Below the pieces are notes generated by a model. It was not told the DNA's origin. It did no database searches and was given only the letters and a program-made list of their open reading frames with translations. The position numbers and the translations under genes were made by a program. From the IMG/VR virus record IMGVR_UViG_3300027608_000176, positions 1-22,030 of that record: DNA of 22,030 nucleotides. One strand, written 5' to 3'. Shown one piece after another: positions 9,075-19,188 of the stretch (positions are counted from its first letter, which is position 1; each line of letters starts with the position of its first letter). This DNA comes from a virus.

Positions 9075-9662
9075 TTAATGTCCTTTAAAGAATCGTTGTT
9101 GTCCTGCCTTGGTAGGATATGGCACATCAATTGGAATTGGTAGCTTGCCACCTGGATAACACACGTACTGGTTGTATTCTCTTTCTACAACTCTATAGAA
9201 CTGTGCTTTTAACACACGATCATGCTTGATGGCTGCCCAGGGCATGCCACCAAAATACTGATCACTGATACGGATGCTCACAACATTGGGCAAGTCCATC
9301 CATTTGTAAGTTAGTTTGCCATCATCGCCAATGGGCGCCAAGGGGTCATGGTGCCCTGCTTCTGATGCTTTACGATAGGCTTGACAACGACGGGCCACAG
9401 CTTCTGCGTTCTTTTGTTCTCGCTTGATGTAGAACTTGCCATCTTCACGACCAGTAGTGGTTATGATGTTTTGGCTGCCGCTTAAACTGGTTCGTTGCCA
9501 ATCGCCTTTCATGGCATTGTATAACTTGTCGTTTTTTAGCAGGGCATCTGCTACACCATTGTGGCTGGTTACTATGCCACCATGGTCTTGACGCCAGTAG
9601 TCCATGTTGCGTTCTGGATCCGCATCGTTTAGGTATTCGGGTTTATTTTGATCATCACTCAT
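9075..9662 (-). CDS. Structural-module protein, 195 aa, function unknown
   Basis: ATG at 9662. AGGAGG lies at 9677-9682, 14 bases upstream of the ATG, which is unusually far. Between them sits ACTAAATA, a late-promoter-like site. The protein is hydrophilic and mixed in charge: an Asp/Glu-rich N-terminus (SDDQNKPEYLNDADPERNMDYW), a Lys/Arg-rich middle (KFYIKREQKNAEAVARRCQAYRK, about 76-98, shown here only as a landmark) and a C-terminus with NQYVCYPGGKLPIPIDVPYP. No transmembrane segment is visible and I do not recognise a family. It sits between the capsid terminator and the adaptor, so a neck, head-completion or internal protein is plausible. Confidence 0.8.
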   Translation of the reverse strand: MSDDQNKPEYLNDADPERNMDYWRQDHGGIVTSHNGVADALLKNDKLYNAMKGDWQRTSLSGSQNIITTTGREDGKFYIKREQKNAEAVARRCQAYRKASEAGHHDPLAPIGDDGKLTYKWMDLPNVVSIRISDQYFGGMPWAAIKHDRVLKAQFYRVVEREYNQYVCYPGGKLPIPIDVPYPTKAGQQRFFKGH

Positions 9663-9667
9663 ACAAG

Positions 9668-9674
9668 TATTTAG
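9668..9674 (-). promoter_or_regulatory. Late-promoter-like ACTAAATA, predicted leaderless start
   Basis: The minus strand reads ACTAAATA, then five bases (CTTGT), then ATG at 9662. If the motif works like T4 TATAAATA (-13 to -6), +1 falls exactly on the A of this ATG. It stands just after the capsid-gene hairpins, where a new transcript would be useful. Confidence 0.5.
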
Positions 9675-9705: not shown

Positions 9706-9729
9706 ACAAAAGGGCCGAAGCCCTTTTGT
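9706..9729 (-). terminator. Intrinsic terminator-like hairpin after the capsid gene (UUCG loop)
   Basis: A perfect 10-bp stem (ACAAAAGGGC / GCCCTTTTGT) closes a four-base loop. On the transcribed minus strand the loop is TTCG closed by C and G, the very stable UUCG tetraloop. The 3' arm ends in TTTTGT, supplying the U-run. It begins about 22 nt after the capsid stop, the usual place for a rho-independent terminator or an mRNA 3' stabiliser. Confidence 0.8.
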
Positions 9730-12093: not shown

Positions 12094-12140
12094 TAAAATT
12101 CCTTGTTTCAAACCGGGGCCGAAGCTTACCGTTGTTGAGA

Positions 12141-12147
12141 TATTTAG
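12141..12147 (-). promoter_or_regulatory. Late-promoter-like ACTAAATA for scaffold-capsid
   Basis: The minus strand reads ACTAAATATC in the 76-nt gap after the 115-aa gene. With T4-like spacing +1 is near 12135, giving a leader of about 42 nt that ends in AAGGA before the scaffold ATG. It would give the scaffold and capsid genes their own transcript, ended by the hairpins at 9706-9751. Confidence 0.6.
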
Positions 12148-12169: not shown

Positions 12170-12517
12170 TTATTGATTCTGTTTTGGAGCTGATTCCCAC
12201 TCCAGTATCCGGTTGCGCATGAACACAGCTTGTTTAAGGCTGCCAATAAACGCATCAATGCCTGTGAGTTGATTGGCCACTGCCACTCTGTGTGCATTGG
12301 CTTCATCACTATGGCTCACAATTGTCAGCAGGATATCACTCAATGTAAATTTAAAGTGATGAACGAACAAGGCCAGTTCACGATTCTTCAGCAGTGCTTC
12401 TGCATCGCTACCGTACTGCTTGGCCTGATCCCGTTGTGCTGGTGTAAACTTTTTGTAGTTGTTAAAGTCCACTGTTAGGCGTGTGTTAAACGCTTGTATT
12501 GTTGCATCATCTATCAT
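12170..12517 (-). CDS. Small helical protein, 115 aa, function unknown
   Basis: ATG at 12517 overlaps the methyltransferase stop as ATGA, with AAGGA upstream, so the two are translationally coupled. The sequence reads as mostly helix (AFNTRLTVDFNNYKKFTPAQ, then LLKNRELALFVHHFKFTLSD, then SLKQAVFMRNRILEWES at the end). No Cys, no signal peptide, no recognisable motif. It is the last gene before the scaffold promoter. It may belong with the methyltransferase as a cassette or be a head-assembly helper; the sequence does not decide. Confidence 0.75.
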   Translation of the reverse strand: MIDDATIQAFNTRLTVDFNNYKKFTPAQRDQAKQYGSDAEALLKNRELALFVHHFKFTLSDILLTIVSHSDEANAHRVAVANQLTGIDAFIGSLKQAVFMRNRILEWESAPKQNQ

Positions 12518-13290
12518 AACCGTTCCTTTGGTATAAAAAATCTGTCCATTGCGCTGTTTCGTTGCCCTGCAGCCCGTGCAAGTGCTTTGTTCCAGCGTCC
12601 GTGTGCGTCCCAGGCAATTGTATCGCCTGCGTTGTTTGTTTGCACATAGTCAATGCTGTGAAAATAGTCCAGCATGTGTTGATTGTGCAAGCCCAGGCGT
12701 TTTTCCCAGTTCCAAAACTCTACTTCCACTACAGGACGACACTGTTCAATAGTTTGCTGGGCGCCTTGTATTACCAACCATTCAGTGCCTTCAGTATCAG
12801 CTTTGATAATGTCAACATCCTGCCACCCATAGCTGTCAATAGTTGCTGTTGTGCATGCTTGGTCGCCAGTATCATAACGCACAAAGTCAGCAAGTCCAGC
12901 TTCGCGGTGATTTACGTATGCTGTTGCACACCGATCCATTAGTGCTGTTTTGTGTGTTGTTATTGTGCCTGTGATGTCTAGCGCACTGTAGGGGTACCAG
13001 GGCTTGCCGCCCTGACGCTGACGATTAGCAGCAATGTTTTGCTGTAGCAATTGGTAAGTTATGTCGCTGCATTCAAATGCTTCTACATTTTGTGCCCAAG
13101 TTGCGTATTCAATAGTGTTGGTGCCAACATTAGCGCCAACATCAACTATGCGTCTAGCTGTAGGCACTAACTTACGCAGGTAGCGCAAGCTGCCCACTTG
13201 ATATATGCCAGAGCCAAACGCACGATCCACTACACTGTGCTGTTGCACATTGTAAACACGATTGTGTCTGTTTGTTATTTGCACTATCAT
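12514..13290 (-). CDS. FkbM-family SAM-dependent methyltransferase, 258 aa
   Basis: Class I methyltransferase. Motif I is VDVGANVGTNT (about 49-59); the acidic ribose-binding position follows in VEAFECS (about 69-75). The FkbM signature KADTEGTEWLVIQGA (about 163-177) is followed by PVVEVEF (about 186-192). Family members O-methylate sugars or related hydroxyls on glycans and natural products; the substrate here is unknown. Its ATG at 13290 overlaps the stop of a 46-aa ORF as ATGA, and its own stop overlaps the next start as ATGA. It sits among head genes between portal and scaffold, an odd place for an enzyme, so it looks like a moron-type insertion. Possible targets are virion or host-surface glycans; this is inference. 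Confidence 0.85.
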   Translation of the reverse strand: MIVQITNRHNRVYNVQQHSVVDRAFGSGIYQVGSLRYLRKLVPTARRIVDVGANVGTNTIEYATWAQNVEAFECSDITYQLLQQNIAANRQRQGGKPWYPYSALDITGTITTHKTALMDRCATAYVNHREAGLADFVRYDTGDQACTTATIDSYGWQDVDIIKADTEGTEWLVIQGAQQTIEQCRPVVEVEFWNWEKRLGLHNQHMLDYFHSIDYVQTNNAGDTIAWDAHGRWNKALARAAGQRNSAMDRFFIPKERL

Positions 13291-13427
13291 TTTGGAACGC
13301 AGTCCAAGTAATGGTCAAAAGTTGGGAACATTTGTGTTTTTTGCTCCGCTGTAAGTGTAGCAAGCCATGTGTTAAAACTTGCTGGGGTCATTAACTTACA
13401 AAAAGTTATTAGTTGTGTGTGTTGCAT
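13287..13427 (-). CDS. 46-aa ORF coupled to the methyltransferase
   Basis: ATG at 13427 begins MQHTQLITFCKLMTPASF and runs 46 codons to a TGA whose bases overlap the methyltransferase ATG as ATGA. It lies downstream of a promoter-hairpin leader; TTGGA stands about six bases before the ATG, a weak ribosome site. The peptide contains FNTWLATLTAEQKTQMFPTF, a compact, possibly two-helix sequence. Its function is unknown: it could be a real small protein or a leader peptide whose translation delivers ribosomes to the enzyme gene. The stop/start overlap and the matching promoter are the evidence that it is translated. Confidence 0.6.
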   Translation of the reverse strand: MQHTQLITFCKLMTPASFNTWLATLTAEQKTQMFPTFDHYLDCVPK

Positions 13428-13453
13428 ATAAAGTCCAATACATAAAAAAATTA

Positions 13454-13484
13454 ACACAACAAAACAACTGTTGCTTTGTTGTGT
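13454..13484 (-). promoter_or_regulatory. 5'-leader hairpin, copy A
   Basis: A 31-base inverted repeat: ACACAACAAAGCAAC, a central base, then GTTGTTTTGTTGTGT on the minus strand, with a single G-U pair. It starts at the predicted +1 of the promoter at 13489-13495, so the mRNA would begin base-paired. It is identical in sequence to copy B at 13876-13906. Confidence 0.7.
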
Positions 13485-13488
13485 AAAG

Positions 13489-13495
13489 TATTTAG
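13489..13495 (-). promoter_or_regulatory. Late-promoter-like GCTAAATAC before the 46-aa ORF and methyltransferase
   Basis: CTAAATA on the minus strand followed by CTTTACACAAC. T4-like spacing puts +1 at 13483, one base inside the leader hairpin. The downstream genes are the 46-aa ORF, the methyltransferase and the 115-aa gene. Confidence 0.6.
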
Positions 13496-13501
13496 CACAG
13501 T

Positions 13502-13569
13502 AATGCCAGCACTAATATTTTTGCAATGTGTGCTACAATAGCGTTAGCAAAAATATTTGTGCCAGCATT
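13502..13569. repeat. Long imperfect inverted repeat after the 89-aa gene
   Basis: Two 23-base arms (AATGCCAGCACTAATATTTTT.. at 13502 and its near-complement ending GTGCCAGCATT at 13569) agree at about 20 of 23 positions around a 22-base loop. It lies between the 89-aa stop and the next promoter, so it could end the first transcript. Each arm holds one GCAAAAATATT-type box. Confidence 0.65.
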
Positions 13570-13579
13570 ATTGTTTACG

Positions 13580-13849
13580 TTATGCTAGCTGCTTTGCTGC
13601 GTATGTTTTTACTATAACATCCCAAGCAGCGTACAAGTCGTCAACTTGCACGTCATCAGTAATAGCCAGTGTAGGCCCTGTAATAACAAACACGTTGTCG
13701 TCGTTGTAAGTCCAGTGAGACACATTGTTTAAGTTTTGTCTAATAGCAGCGTCAACACTGCACACTAACATTGCAGCGTCTTGCACTGCTAACACATTTT
13801 TGTTTTGCATAACTTTTTGCAAAGTTTGCTGCGCTTTAATTTTTAACAT
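13580..13849 (-). CDS. 89-aa protein of the accessory cassette, function unknown
   Basis: ATG at 13849 (MLKIKAQQTLQKVMQNKNVL) is preceded by TGGAG about seven bases upstream and by the second copy of the promoter-hairpin leader. The protein has a helical first half rich in Gln and Ala and a second half with strands (NVFVITGPTLAITDDVQVDD) and a final helix (AAWDVIVKTYAAKQLA). It has no recognisable motif, one Cys and no signal peptide. Its leader is a duplicate of the one in front of the 46-aa ORF, so the two units probably arose by duplication of the control region, or share one regulator. Confidence 0.75.
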   Translation of the reverse strand: MLKIKAQQTLQKVMQNKNVLAVQDAAMLVCSVDAAIRQNLNNVSHWTYNDDNVFVITGPTLAITDDVQVDDLYAAWDVIVKTYAAKQLA

Positions 13850-13875
13850 TTAATACTCCAGTACATAAAAATATA

Positions 13876-13906
13876 ACACAACAAAACAACTGTTGCTTTG
13901 TTGTGT
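13876..13906 (-). promoter_or_regulatory. 5'-leader hairpin, copy B
   Basis: Same 31-base inverted repeat as copy A. Predicted +1 (13905) again falls one base inside the stem, so no unpaired 5' tail would be left on the mRNA. Confidence 0.7.
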
Positions 13907-13910
13907 AAAG

Positions 13911-13917
13911 TATTTAG
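13911..13917 (-). promoter_or_regulatory. Late-promoter-like GCTAAATAC before the 89-aa gene
   Basis: CTAAATA on the minus strand with the same flanks as the site at 13489. The nearest GCAAAAATATT box lies 18 bases upstream, the same spacing as in copy A. Confidence 0.6.
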
Positions 13918-13930
13918 CTAGTTAACGTCA

Positions 13931-14064
13931 GTGCAAATATTTTTGCTATGTGTGCTGTGTAGTATTGTATGTGTTGCAAGTATCAGCACAAATATTTTTG
14001 CTATGTGTGCTGTGTGCTGTGTAGTATTGTATGTGTTGCAGTGTCAGTGCAAATATTTTTGCAC
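13931..14064. repeat. Three iterated GCAAAAATATTTG boxes with long direct repeats
   Basis: Boxes at 13931-13946, 13986-14001 and 14047-14064 each read GCAAAAATATTTG on the minus strand and are near-palindromic; the last is a 7-bp stem (GTGCAAA / TTTGCAC) around AATA. Between them a sequence containing ACACATACAATACTACACAG is repeated, with periods of 55 and 61 bases. This fills the 232-base gap between portal and the 89-aa gene, in which I find no convincing ORF. It may be a regulator-binding array or a recombination site. Confidence 0.8.
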
Positions 14065-14081
14065 TTGCACTGCTGCACATG

Positions 14082-16367: not shown

Positions 16368-16374
16368 TATTTAG
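16368..16374 (-). promoter_or_regulatory. Late-promoter-like ACTAAATAC before the portal gene
   Basis: In the 59-base gap after the terminase stop. Predicted +1 near 16362 gives a 16-nt leader carrying GAGGA, just enough for a ribosome site ahead of the portal ATG. Confidence 0.6.
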
Positions 16375-18013: not shown

Positions 18014-18333
18014 TATTCAACCGCAGGCAAGCGCCAGTCTTGACGCACTTGGTTAAGGCTTTTGAGAGCCAGACTCAAGTTCAGGATGTCTTCTGTTGTG
18101 GCCAACCAGGTGGTGGTGTCAGTGAGCACTGTGTCAGCATCTTTGGTCAAGCATGCCTGCAAGCGTTCACTCACCAATCTCATGTGATGTTCTATCTGAT
18201 TGGGAAAGCGTTGGGTAAACGCTTCACGGTTCACAGCATTGACCTTTTGCAGGATCTTGGTATCATCCACACGCCGTGCTTCTACGGCTGCATGTATCTG
18301 ACCATCTCTTATGGCAGGATGTGTGTCGGCCAT
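18013..18333 (-). CDS. 106-aa protein upstream of terminase, function unknown
   Basis: I choose ATG at 18333 (MADTHPAIRDGQIHAAVEAR) because it overlaps the previous stop as TAATG. A GTG at 18411 extends the frame but lies inside the upstream gene. The protein looks all-helical: VEARRVDDTKILQKVNAVNR, then IEHHMRLVSERLQACL, then ILNLSLALKSLNQVRQDW. Its place immediately before the large terminase, with coupled translation, makes it a candidate small terminase subunit or packaging helper, but no DNA-binding motif can be pointed to. The GRPK protein at 21530-21907 is the rival candidate. Confidence 0.75.
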   Translation of the reverse strand: MADTHPAIRDGQIHAAVEARRVDDTKILQKVNAVNREAFTQRFPNQIEHHMRLVSERLQACLTKDADTVLTDTTTWLATTEDILNLSLALKSLNQVRQDWRLPAVE

Positions 18334-19124
18334 TATGCGTCCAGTTCCCAAGGATTGATAGCTGCCTTGTGATTGAGTGATATAAAGTCTCTGTCCACGT
18401 ACTTGACCCACTGATTTGTGGTGTTGTATCGGAATGTCTGCATCATGGCCTTGAGTCTGCGACCAATGGGTGTAAAGCTGCCATCAGGACGCTGCACAAT
18501 CTGTTCACCTGTTCTGGGGTCTACCCAGCGAATGATCTCGGGACGAATCTTGCCCCACTTGTCAATCTTTTCGCCATGTGCTCTGGGTTCAATAGGACCA
18601 ATCACTTCATAGGTGATCATACCATTCTTATACTTCTTGAATGTGCAGTGCATCTTGCGACCTTGAGAGTGATACTCCGCATCCGAGTGTGGCACAAATG
18701 CAGTGAAGAATTCATTCTGTAGATCTTCACGGCCAGGAATGGCAGGGTCTCTGGGTGGCAGGGTCTTGAGTGGATCTTCAGGCACCATATCTGTTTTGTC
18801 TAGATAAGGATTGTCTCGGCCAATGAACTTCTCTTCAACATTGATGCCGTTGAGTGTGTCCATGGCCACTTGATACTTCAGCTTGTTGGCACGACCTTTT
18901 AGGTTCAGCACAATGCCTGTTTCATCATACACAAAACGTTCAAGGTCTCGAGCTGTGGGAAAGTCTGTCATGAGACCTTCTAGATCAAAGTCTCGTTCAG
19001 GTGCAGACGGTGCTGCTGGCTTTTTTAGTTTAGGGGGTTTTGCATCAGGCTCAACTGGGGCTGCAGGTTCTACAGCGTCATCCCAGATGTTTTCTGCGGG
19101 TGCGGGGGTTGGTCGTTTGTTCAT
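18333..19124 (-). CDS. 263-aa protein, Pro/Ala-rich N-terminus, function unknown
   Basis: ATG at 19124 has AAGGA about seven bases upstream. The first 45 residues are a Pro/Ala/Lys linker (APAENIWDDAVEPAAPVEPD). The rest is a folded-looking domain with FPTARDLERFVYDETGIVLN, a charged middle (KFIGRDNPYLDKTDMVPEDP), AFVPHSDAEYHSQGRKMHCT and a C-terminus rich in aromatic and basic residues (WVKYVDRDFISLNHKAA). One Cys, no membrane segment. I do not recognise it. It lies in a coupled run with the 106-aa gene and terminase, so a packaging or head-related role is possible. Confidence 0.8.
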   Translation of the reverse strand: MNKRPTPAPAENIWDDAVEPAAPVEPDAKPPKLKKPAAPSAPERDFDLEGLMTDFPTARDLERFVYDETGIVLNLKGRANKLKYQVAMDTLNGINVEEKFIGRDNPYLDKTDMVPEDPLKTLPPRDPAIPGREDLQNEFFTAFVPHSDAEYHSQGRKMHCTFKKYKNGMITYEVIGPIEPRAHGEKIDKWGKIRPEIIRWVDPRTGEQIVQRPDGSFTPIGRRLKAMMQTFRYNTTNQWVKYVDRDFISLNHKAAINPWELDA

Positions 19125-19153
19125 GTCTTTTCCTTGTCAAAACAAATCTTGAA

Positions 19154-19178
19154 CTAGAACACACCCTGTGTGCTCTAG
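19154..19178 (-). terminator. Hairpin between the 108-aa and 263-aa genes
   Basis: On the minus strand CTAGAGCACA, a five-base loop (CAGGG), then TGTGTTCTAG: a 10-bp stem with one G-U pair. It lies just after the 108-aa stop. The following TTCAAGATTTGTTTT is not a clean U-run, so termination would be partial; an mRNA-processing role is equally possible. Confidence 0.5.
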
Positions 19179-19188
19179 TGGGGGTTGA

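Follow-up and report, generated by a model that had tools for sequence, protein, structure and literature searches.

Two stretches of 45 bases in a viral genome fragment, at positions 13452-13496 and 13874-13918, raise the question of why a phage would place what looks like the start of a transcript at the foot of a hairpin, and would do so twice. The window, meaning the whole stretch of DNA analysed here, comprises 22,030 nucleotides of IMG/VR record IMGVR_UViG_3300027608_000176, and both blocks lie on its minus strand, which is also the strand of the late genes. An earlier sequence-only reading had described the two blocks as identical; direct comparison confirms this, and identity stops precisely at both block ends. 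The explanation preferred here, to which we give about even chances and which leans on analogy with characterised leaders, is that the twin repeats are duplicated late-promoter cassettes whose 5′-terminal hairpins would shield the mRNAs of accessory genes.

The twin leaders and the accessory block

On the minus strand each block is laid out as CTAAATA-CTTT-ACACAACAAAGCAACAGTTGTTTTGTTGTGT. The motif and the 31-base inverted repeat are thus present as first noticed, although the repeat does not follow the motif at once, as had been stated, since CTTT lies between the motif and the stem. Downstream of the hairpin both copies run through T-rich sequence to a TGGA(G) ribosome site, and the ATG stands 68 bases from the first base of the motif (Table 1).

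The window derives from a freshwater phage with portal and capsid proteins of the SU10 type (PF23899, PF17236). Relatives of the portal protein are encoded by 466 candidate IMG/VR stretches, and several contigs of these relatives, at about 34-36 kb, approach full length. No relative of the portal was found in bacterial genomes, so that neither a prophage nor a host can be named, and the window contains no tRNA. The accessory block is situated between the portal gene and a gene of 115 amino acids (aa), and consists of an 89-aa ORF, a 46-aa ORF and an FkbM-type methyltransferase. Three contigs with nearly identical portal proteins (L002-L004, 98% identity) carry the methyltransferase alone of this block, and most other relatives are without the block. 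A homologue of the 89-aa ORF was not found outside the window's species, and a candidate homology between the 89-aa and 46-aa ORFs was dropped on inspection. A distant relative of the methyltransferase (36% identity) stands behind a TATAAATA motif on another phage contig (L279, 1361-1411).

Table 1 Positions of the promoter motifs, leader hairpins and genes discussed in the text
Feature	Position in window	Strand	Remarks
Leader copy A, 45-bp repeat	13874..13918	-	Upstream of 89-aa ORF; identical to 13452-13496
Leader copy B, 45-bp repeat	13452..13496	-	Upstream of 46-aa ORF and FkbM methyltransferase
CTAAATA late-promoter motif (putative), copy A	13911..13917	-	
CTAAATA late-promoter motif (putative), copy B	13489..13495	-	
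14-bp hairpin, copy A	13876..13906	-	Predicted +1 at 13906 (A) or 13905 (C)
14-bp hairpin, copy B	13454..13484	-	Predicted +1 at 13484 (A) or 13483 (C)
89-aa ORF	13580..13849	-	TGGAG ribosome site; ATG 68 nt from motif start
46-aa ORF	13287..13427	-	Stop overlaps methyltransferase ATG
FkbM-type methyltransferase (PF05050)	12514..13290	-	Accessory gene, missing from most relatives
Imperfect palindrome, AATGCTGGCAC ... GTGCTGGCATT around GCAAAAATATT	13503..13570	-	Just upstream of copy B
CTAAATA upstream of portal gene	16368..16374	-	Conserved across family
CTAAATA upstream of scaffold gene	12141..12147	-	
CTAAATA upstream of 195-aa gene (9075-9662)	9668..9674	-	Sixth downstream base is the A of the ATG
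GGTAA-stem-loop-CCC hairpin, scaffold/capsid leader	12111..12134	-	Conserved, compensatory changes
12-bp hairpin, leader of 263-aa gene (18333-19124)	19153..19179	-	Upstream of terminase genes

The duplication as a whole spans 111 bp, of which the core is identical at 45 of 45 positions and the 66 flanking positions at 76%; at the rate of the flanks an unchanged core would be expected with a probability of 0.76^45, or about 4e-6. The core has therefore been either selected or converted, and we infer that selection rather than gene conversion lies behind its identity. Related AT-rich hairpins occupy 13920-14075 upstream of copy A, including one at 14045-14072, and AT-rich palindromes around GCAAAAATATT recur some 18 bases ahead of both CTAAATA motifs in the accessory block.

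CTAAATA as a probable late promoter and the predicted transcription start

The window contains seven copies of CTAAATA, where shuffled sequence has 1.6, and six of them lie on the late strand, where 0.9 would be expected. In nearly all of 79 relatives the portal start is preceded by CTAAATA at a distance of about 28-34 bases, and many scaffold genes and other late genes of these relatives are preceded by it as well. ATAAATA or TATAAATA takes its place in some relatives, and some genomes (for example G012) show no enrichment of CTAAATA. The comparison with relatives supports the view that CTAAATA is a single-element late promoter. Aeromonas phage Aeh1 has a published late promoter in which CTAAATA starts at -12 (PMC1524935), and the late promoters of phiEco32 likewise consist of a single element, tAATGTAtA, with transcription starting 6-8 bp downstream (PMC8948821).

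The motif has much in common with the gp55-dependent late promoters of the T4 type (TATAAATA), and most of all with the CTAAATA of Aeh1: the same short single element, with a start predicted 6 bases downstream, is found before structural genes on the late strand, and TATAAATA itself is used by some relatives. The position upstream of late genes on the late strand is that expected of T4-type promoters, and a phage-encoded sigma factor of the gp55 family was not found in the genomes tested. The setting also differs, in that the present phages are small (~36 kb), have virion genes of the SU10 type and give no hit to gp55, Sigma70_r2 or Sigma70_r4 over the cut-off. The likeness to the gp36 late promoters of phiEco32 is of another kind, comprising related SU10/phiEco32-type portal and capsid proteins and the single element; the motif is different, and a recognisable phage sigma factor was not found in the present phages.

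When the C of CTAAATA is counted as offset 0, offsets 11 and 12 correspond to the fifth and sixth bases after the motif. An A occupies offset 11 in 61 of 64 distinct portal promoters and offset 12 in 23 of 35 scaffold promoters, and for the 195-aa gene there are 19 sites at which the A of the ATG itself stands at offset 12. By the T4 rule the start had been placed at the sixth base, one base inside the stem; the geometry is correct, the fifth base (A) being the first base of the stem. The motif of Aeh1 implies the same start at the sixth base, and the conserved A residues at the fifth and sixth bases agree. From these comparisons +1 is inferred at offset 11 or 12, so that the RNA would begin with the outermost base of the stem, which is the conserved initiator A, or with the base next to it.

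At the 195-aa gene of the window (9662-9674, minus strand) the predicted +1 coincides with the A of the ATG, an arrangement conserved in the family, and a leaderless late mRNA is likely there. A terminator-like hairpin at 9706-9729 lies behind the capsid gene, just before the CTAAATA of this gene.

Fold and distribution of the leader hairpin

The inverted repeat is predicted to fold into 14 base pairs with a three-nucleotide loop (CAG) at -15.3 kcal/mol. The stem is perfect and A-U rich, with G-C pairs at 4 of 14 positions and, when the transcribed strand is read, one G-U pair. A shuffled strand yields on average 0.1 perfect stems of 14 bp or longer; the three longest perfect hairpins on the late strand of the window are the two leaders and that of the 263-aa gene. 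In both twin leaders the ribosome site lies outside the stem. No gathering-level match was found in Rfam, which returned chance-level hits only.

Among all viral contigs searched, only the window and one contig identical to it, which represent a single species, have the exact hairpin. A longer prefix of the leader was recovered only from the window's species and, without the hairpin, from L002-L004. In the latter the methyltransferase stands directly behind CTAAATACTTTACACAACAATGTATAGGACATGTAATG, which contains the promoter of the twin leaders and the beginning of the 5′ arm. Because the hairpin is confined to one species, covariation cannot test its function, and the evidence from the wider family applies to it by analogy.

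Such a narrow distribution would suit a relic of recent duplication or recombination that has no function in the leader beyond the promoter. The repeats are specific to one species and flank the 89-aa ORF, and in L002-L004 the methyltransferase has the same promoter in front of it but no hairpin. A relic is nonetheless improbable: the complete identity of the core over flanks that have diverged speaks against it, even if gene conversion could have the same effect, and a stem of 14 bp is unlikely to have been placed at the initiator base by chance.

The bases that follow the stem allow for a different role, in which the hairpin and a U-rich run would form a partial intrinsic terminator or attenuator that throttles the accessory genes, stops read-through from the portal gene and leaves an RNA of about 40 nt. 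The stem is followed in both copies by 6 T in 8 bases, and compared with L002-L004 the leaders have both the 3′ arm and the T-run in addition. The stem itself is poorly suited to termination, being A-U rich with few G-C pairs, and the bases right after it are UAA or UAUA, which precede the T-run and make the proximal U-tract a poor one. The window has no more terminator-like sites than shuffles do (21 against 19.9), many leader hairpins of the 263-aa gene have no U-run, and a terminator right behind its own promoter would largely silence the gene. Since a T-run does follow the stem, attenuation keeps a place among the explanations, as an unlikely one.

Hairpins in other late leaders

Leader hairpins are found elsewhere on the late strand of these phages. 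An element of the form xxGGTAA-stem-loop-CCCxx is present in 58 of 58 distinct scaffold leaders, some 30-40 bases before the start, commonly with GCAA or TTCG loops. Two pairs of its upper stem are formed in 58 of 58 sequences, with four pair types each, against means of 38.5 and 27.5 and maxima of 46 and 40 in shuffles; the lower-stem pair next to them is formed in 54 of 58 (shuffle maximum 40). These counts are somewhat generous, because related sequences were compared and the parsing was biased towards pairing. Pairing was scored in each sequence separately, a MAFFT alignment having misplaced some stems. A stricter GGTAA motif occurred once, at the scaffold leader, in nine of ten genomes scanned and twice in G012; in the more distant Manatee Spring phage the GGTAA hairpin was not found. 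In phages without CTAAATA at this place the hairpin is kept inside the end of the 115-aa gene. Rfam gave no match to the GGUAA-stem-loop-CCC hairpin, which may act as an operator through which capsid synthesis is controlled autogenously.

Most of 52 distinct leaders of the 263-aa gene hold a stem of 8-14 pairs when about one mismatch is allowed, and their sequence varies while the pairing is conserved. A hand-picked and aligned set of 14 stems forms all 11 outer pairs throughout, and each pair occurs in two to five types. Where these leaders bear NTAAATA, perfect stems begin at offsets 7-14, some of them 3 to 5 bases before the predicted +1, and hairpins persist also without an adjoining promoter motif. 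The portal leaders have no more structure than shuffled sequences. A hairpin after every CTAAATA promoter was considered and rejected: stems of at least 9 bp occur at 12 of 304 distinct sites, mostly at the 263-aa gene and the twin leaders. Hairpin leaders, as far as the comparison reaches, go with particular genes and do not generally accompany the promoter; and as the hairpins of the scaffold and 263-aa genes persist without the motif beside them, hairpin function is not tied only to +1.

These observations are also those expected if the hairpins act in any transcript that crosses them, through processing of the RNase III type, as a barrier to decay between cistrons or as the operator of a protein, the promoter adjoining them merely because intergenic space is short. 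The scaffold and 263-aa hairpins are conserved whether or not NTAAATA adjoins them. There is precedent in T4 gene e and I-TevI, whose leader structures hide the ribosome site in long transcripts and have late promoters within them (PMC3014915). In the twin leaders, too, the 5′ strand of a leader RNA structure adjoins or contains a putative late promoter. A switch of the gene e type is not indicated, however, because the ribosome site is not enclosed by the stem. With its 14 bp the stem is moreover short for a typical RNase III site, and the foot of the stem coincides with the conserved initiator A, so that action in any crossing transcript appears rather unlikely as the explanation of the twin leaders.

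The inverted repeat might also act as DNA, with a regulator of phage or host origin binding it as an operator at +1. The predicted start falls within the palindrome, and two identical copies would give joint control. Other leaders of the family, on the other hand, keep the pairing and change the sequence, G-U pairs included, which fits RNA better than a DNA-binding site, and a G-U pair is present in the transcribed strand of the twin-leader palindrome as well. A DNA operator is accordingly the most doubtful of the explanations weighed here.

A proposed 5′-terminal protective hairpin

If the twin repeats are indeed protective cassettes, each would act as a late promoter in which CTAAATA spans -12 to -6 and RNA synthesis begins at the fifth or sixth base beyond it, which is the outermost base of the 14-bp stem or the one next to that. 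The resulting mRNA would open with a hairpin that is blunt or nearly so, and a U-rich spacer, the ribosome site and the accessory gene would come after it. Duplication of the cassette would have placed copy A before the 89-aa ORF and copy B before the 46-aa ORF and the methyltransferase, with the core kept identical. The hairpin would shield the 5′ end from attack of the RppH/RNase E type or by a 5′-exonuclease and so prolong the lifetime of the mRNA.

Stabilising stem-loops at the 5′ terminus are familiar from the ompA and papA leaders of Escherichia coli and from the gene 10 leader of phage T7. In these, as is predicted here, the hairpin sits at the extreme 5′ end and the ribosome site lies outside it; the present stem differs in being perfect and A-U rich, with a foot that is predicted to be the initiator base itself. 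In E. coli, 5′ hairpins impede RppH and stabilise mRNA, and the RppH of Bacillus subtilis requires at least two unpaired 5′ bases (PMC3997798). By this analogy the hairpin probably stabilises the mRNAs of the small accessory genes. Counting against a pure 5′-end cap are the family's stems that begin before the predicted +1, its hairpins without a motif and the hairpin-free promoter of the nearest relatives.

Were the protective reading true, the stability of a late mRNA would be set at the promoter itself, the initiator base serving as the foot of the hairpin. The phages offer natural contrasts in this respect, namely a promoter with and without the hairpin (the window and the near-identical L002-L004), hairpins with and without a promoter, and a conserved gene that is apparently leaderless.

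What reads CTAAATA

The promoter also poses the question of what recognises CTAAATA in genomes without a recognisable late sigma factor. Sigma70_r2 gave no credible hit over the cut-off in any genome tested, Sigma70_r4_2 gave one sub-threshold hit of 19 residues in a 555-aa frame and nothing credible, and a search with the T4 gp55 protein was empty. The phrog_234 profile detects T4 and none of 13 relatives, a result with which a very divergent factor is still compatible. In a near-complete genome of the same species, the ORFs of which were read by eye, replication and structural genes were recognised, and a polymerase or sigma factor was not.

A tentative generalisation, less likely than not, is that a widespread group of small freshwater phages uses T4-like single-element late promoters without a recognisable late sigma factor, by means of an unknown phage factor or one supplied by the host or a co-infecting phage, and has fused these promoters to a set of leader hairpins that includes a once-per-genome element of the capsid operon, perhaps an autogenous operator. 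Six near-complete relatives (G006, G011-G014 and G023) are phages of about 36 kb with T4-like late promoters in which a late sigma factor, gp55 or RNA polymerase was not detected. At three sites, L092 896 and G011 6671 and 34391, CTAAATA is followed by TGTTATAAT-like extended -10 sequences, which suggests that late and host-type promoters may be paired at small accessory genes.
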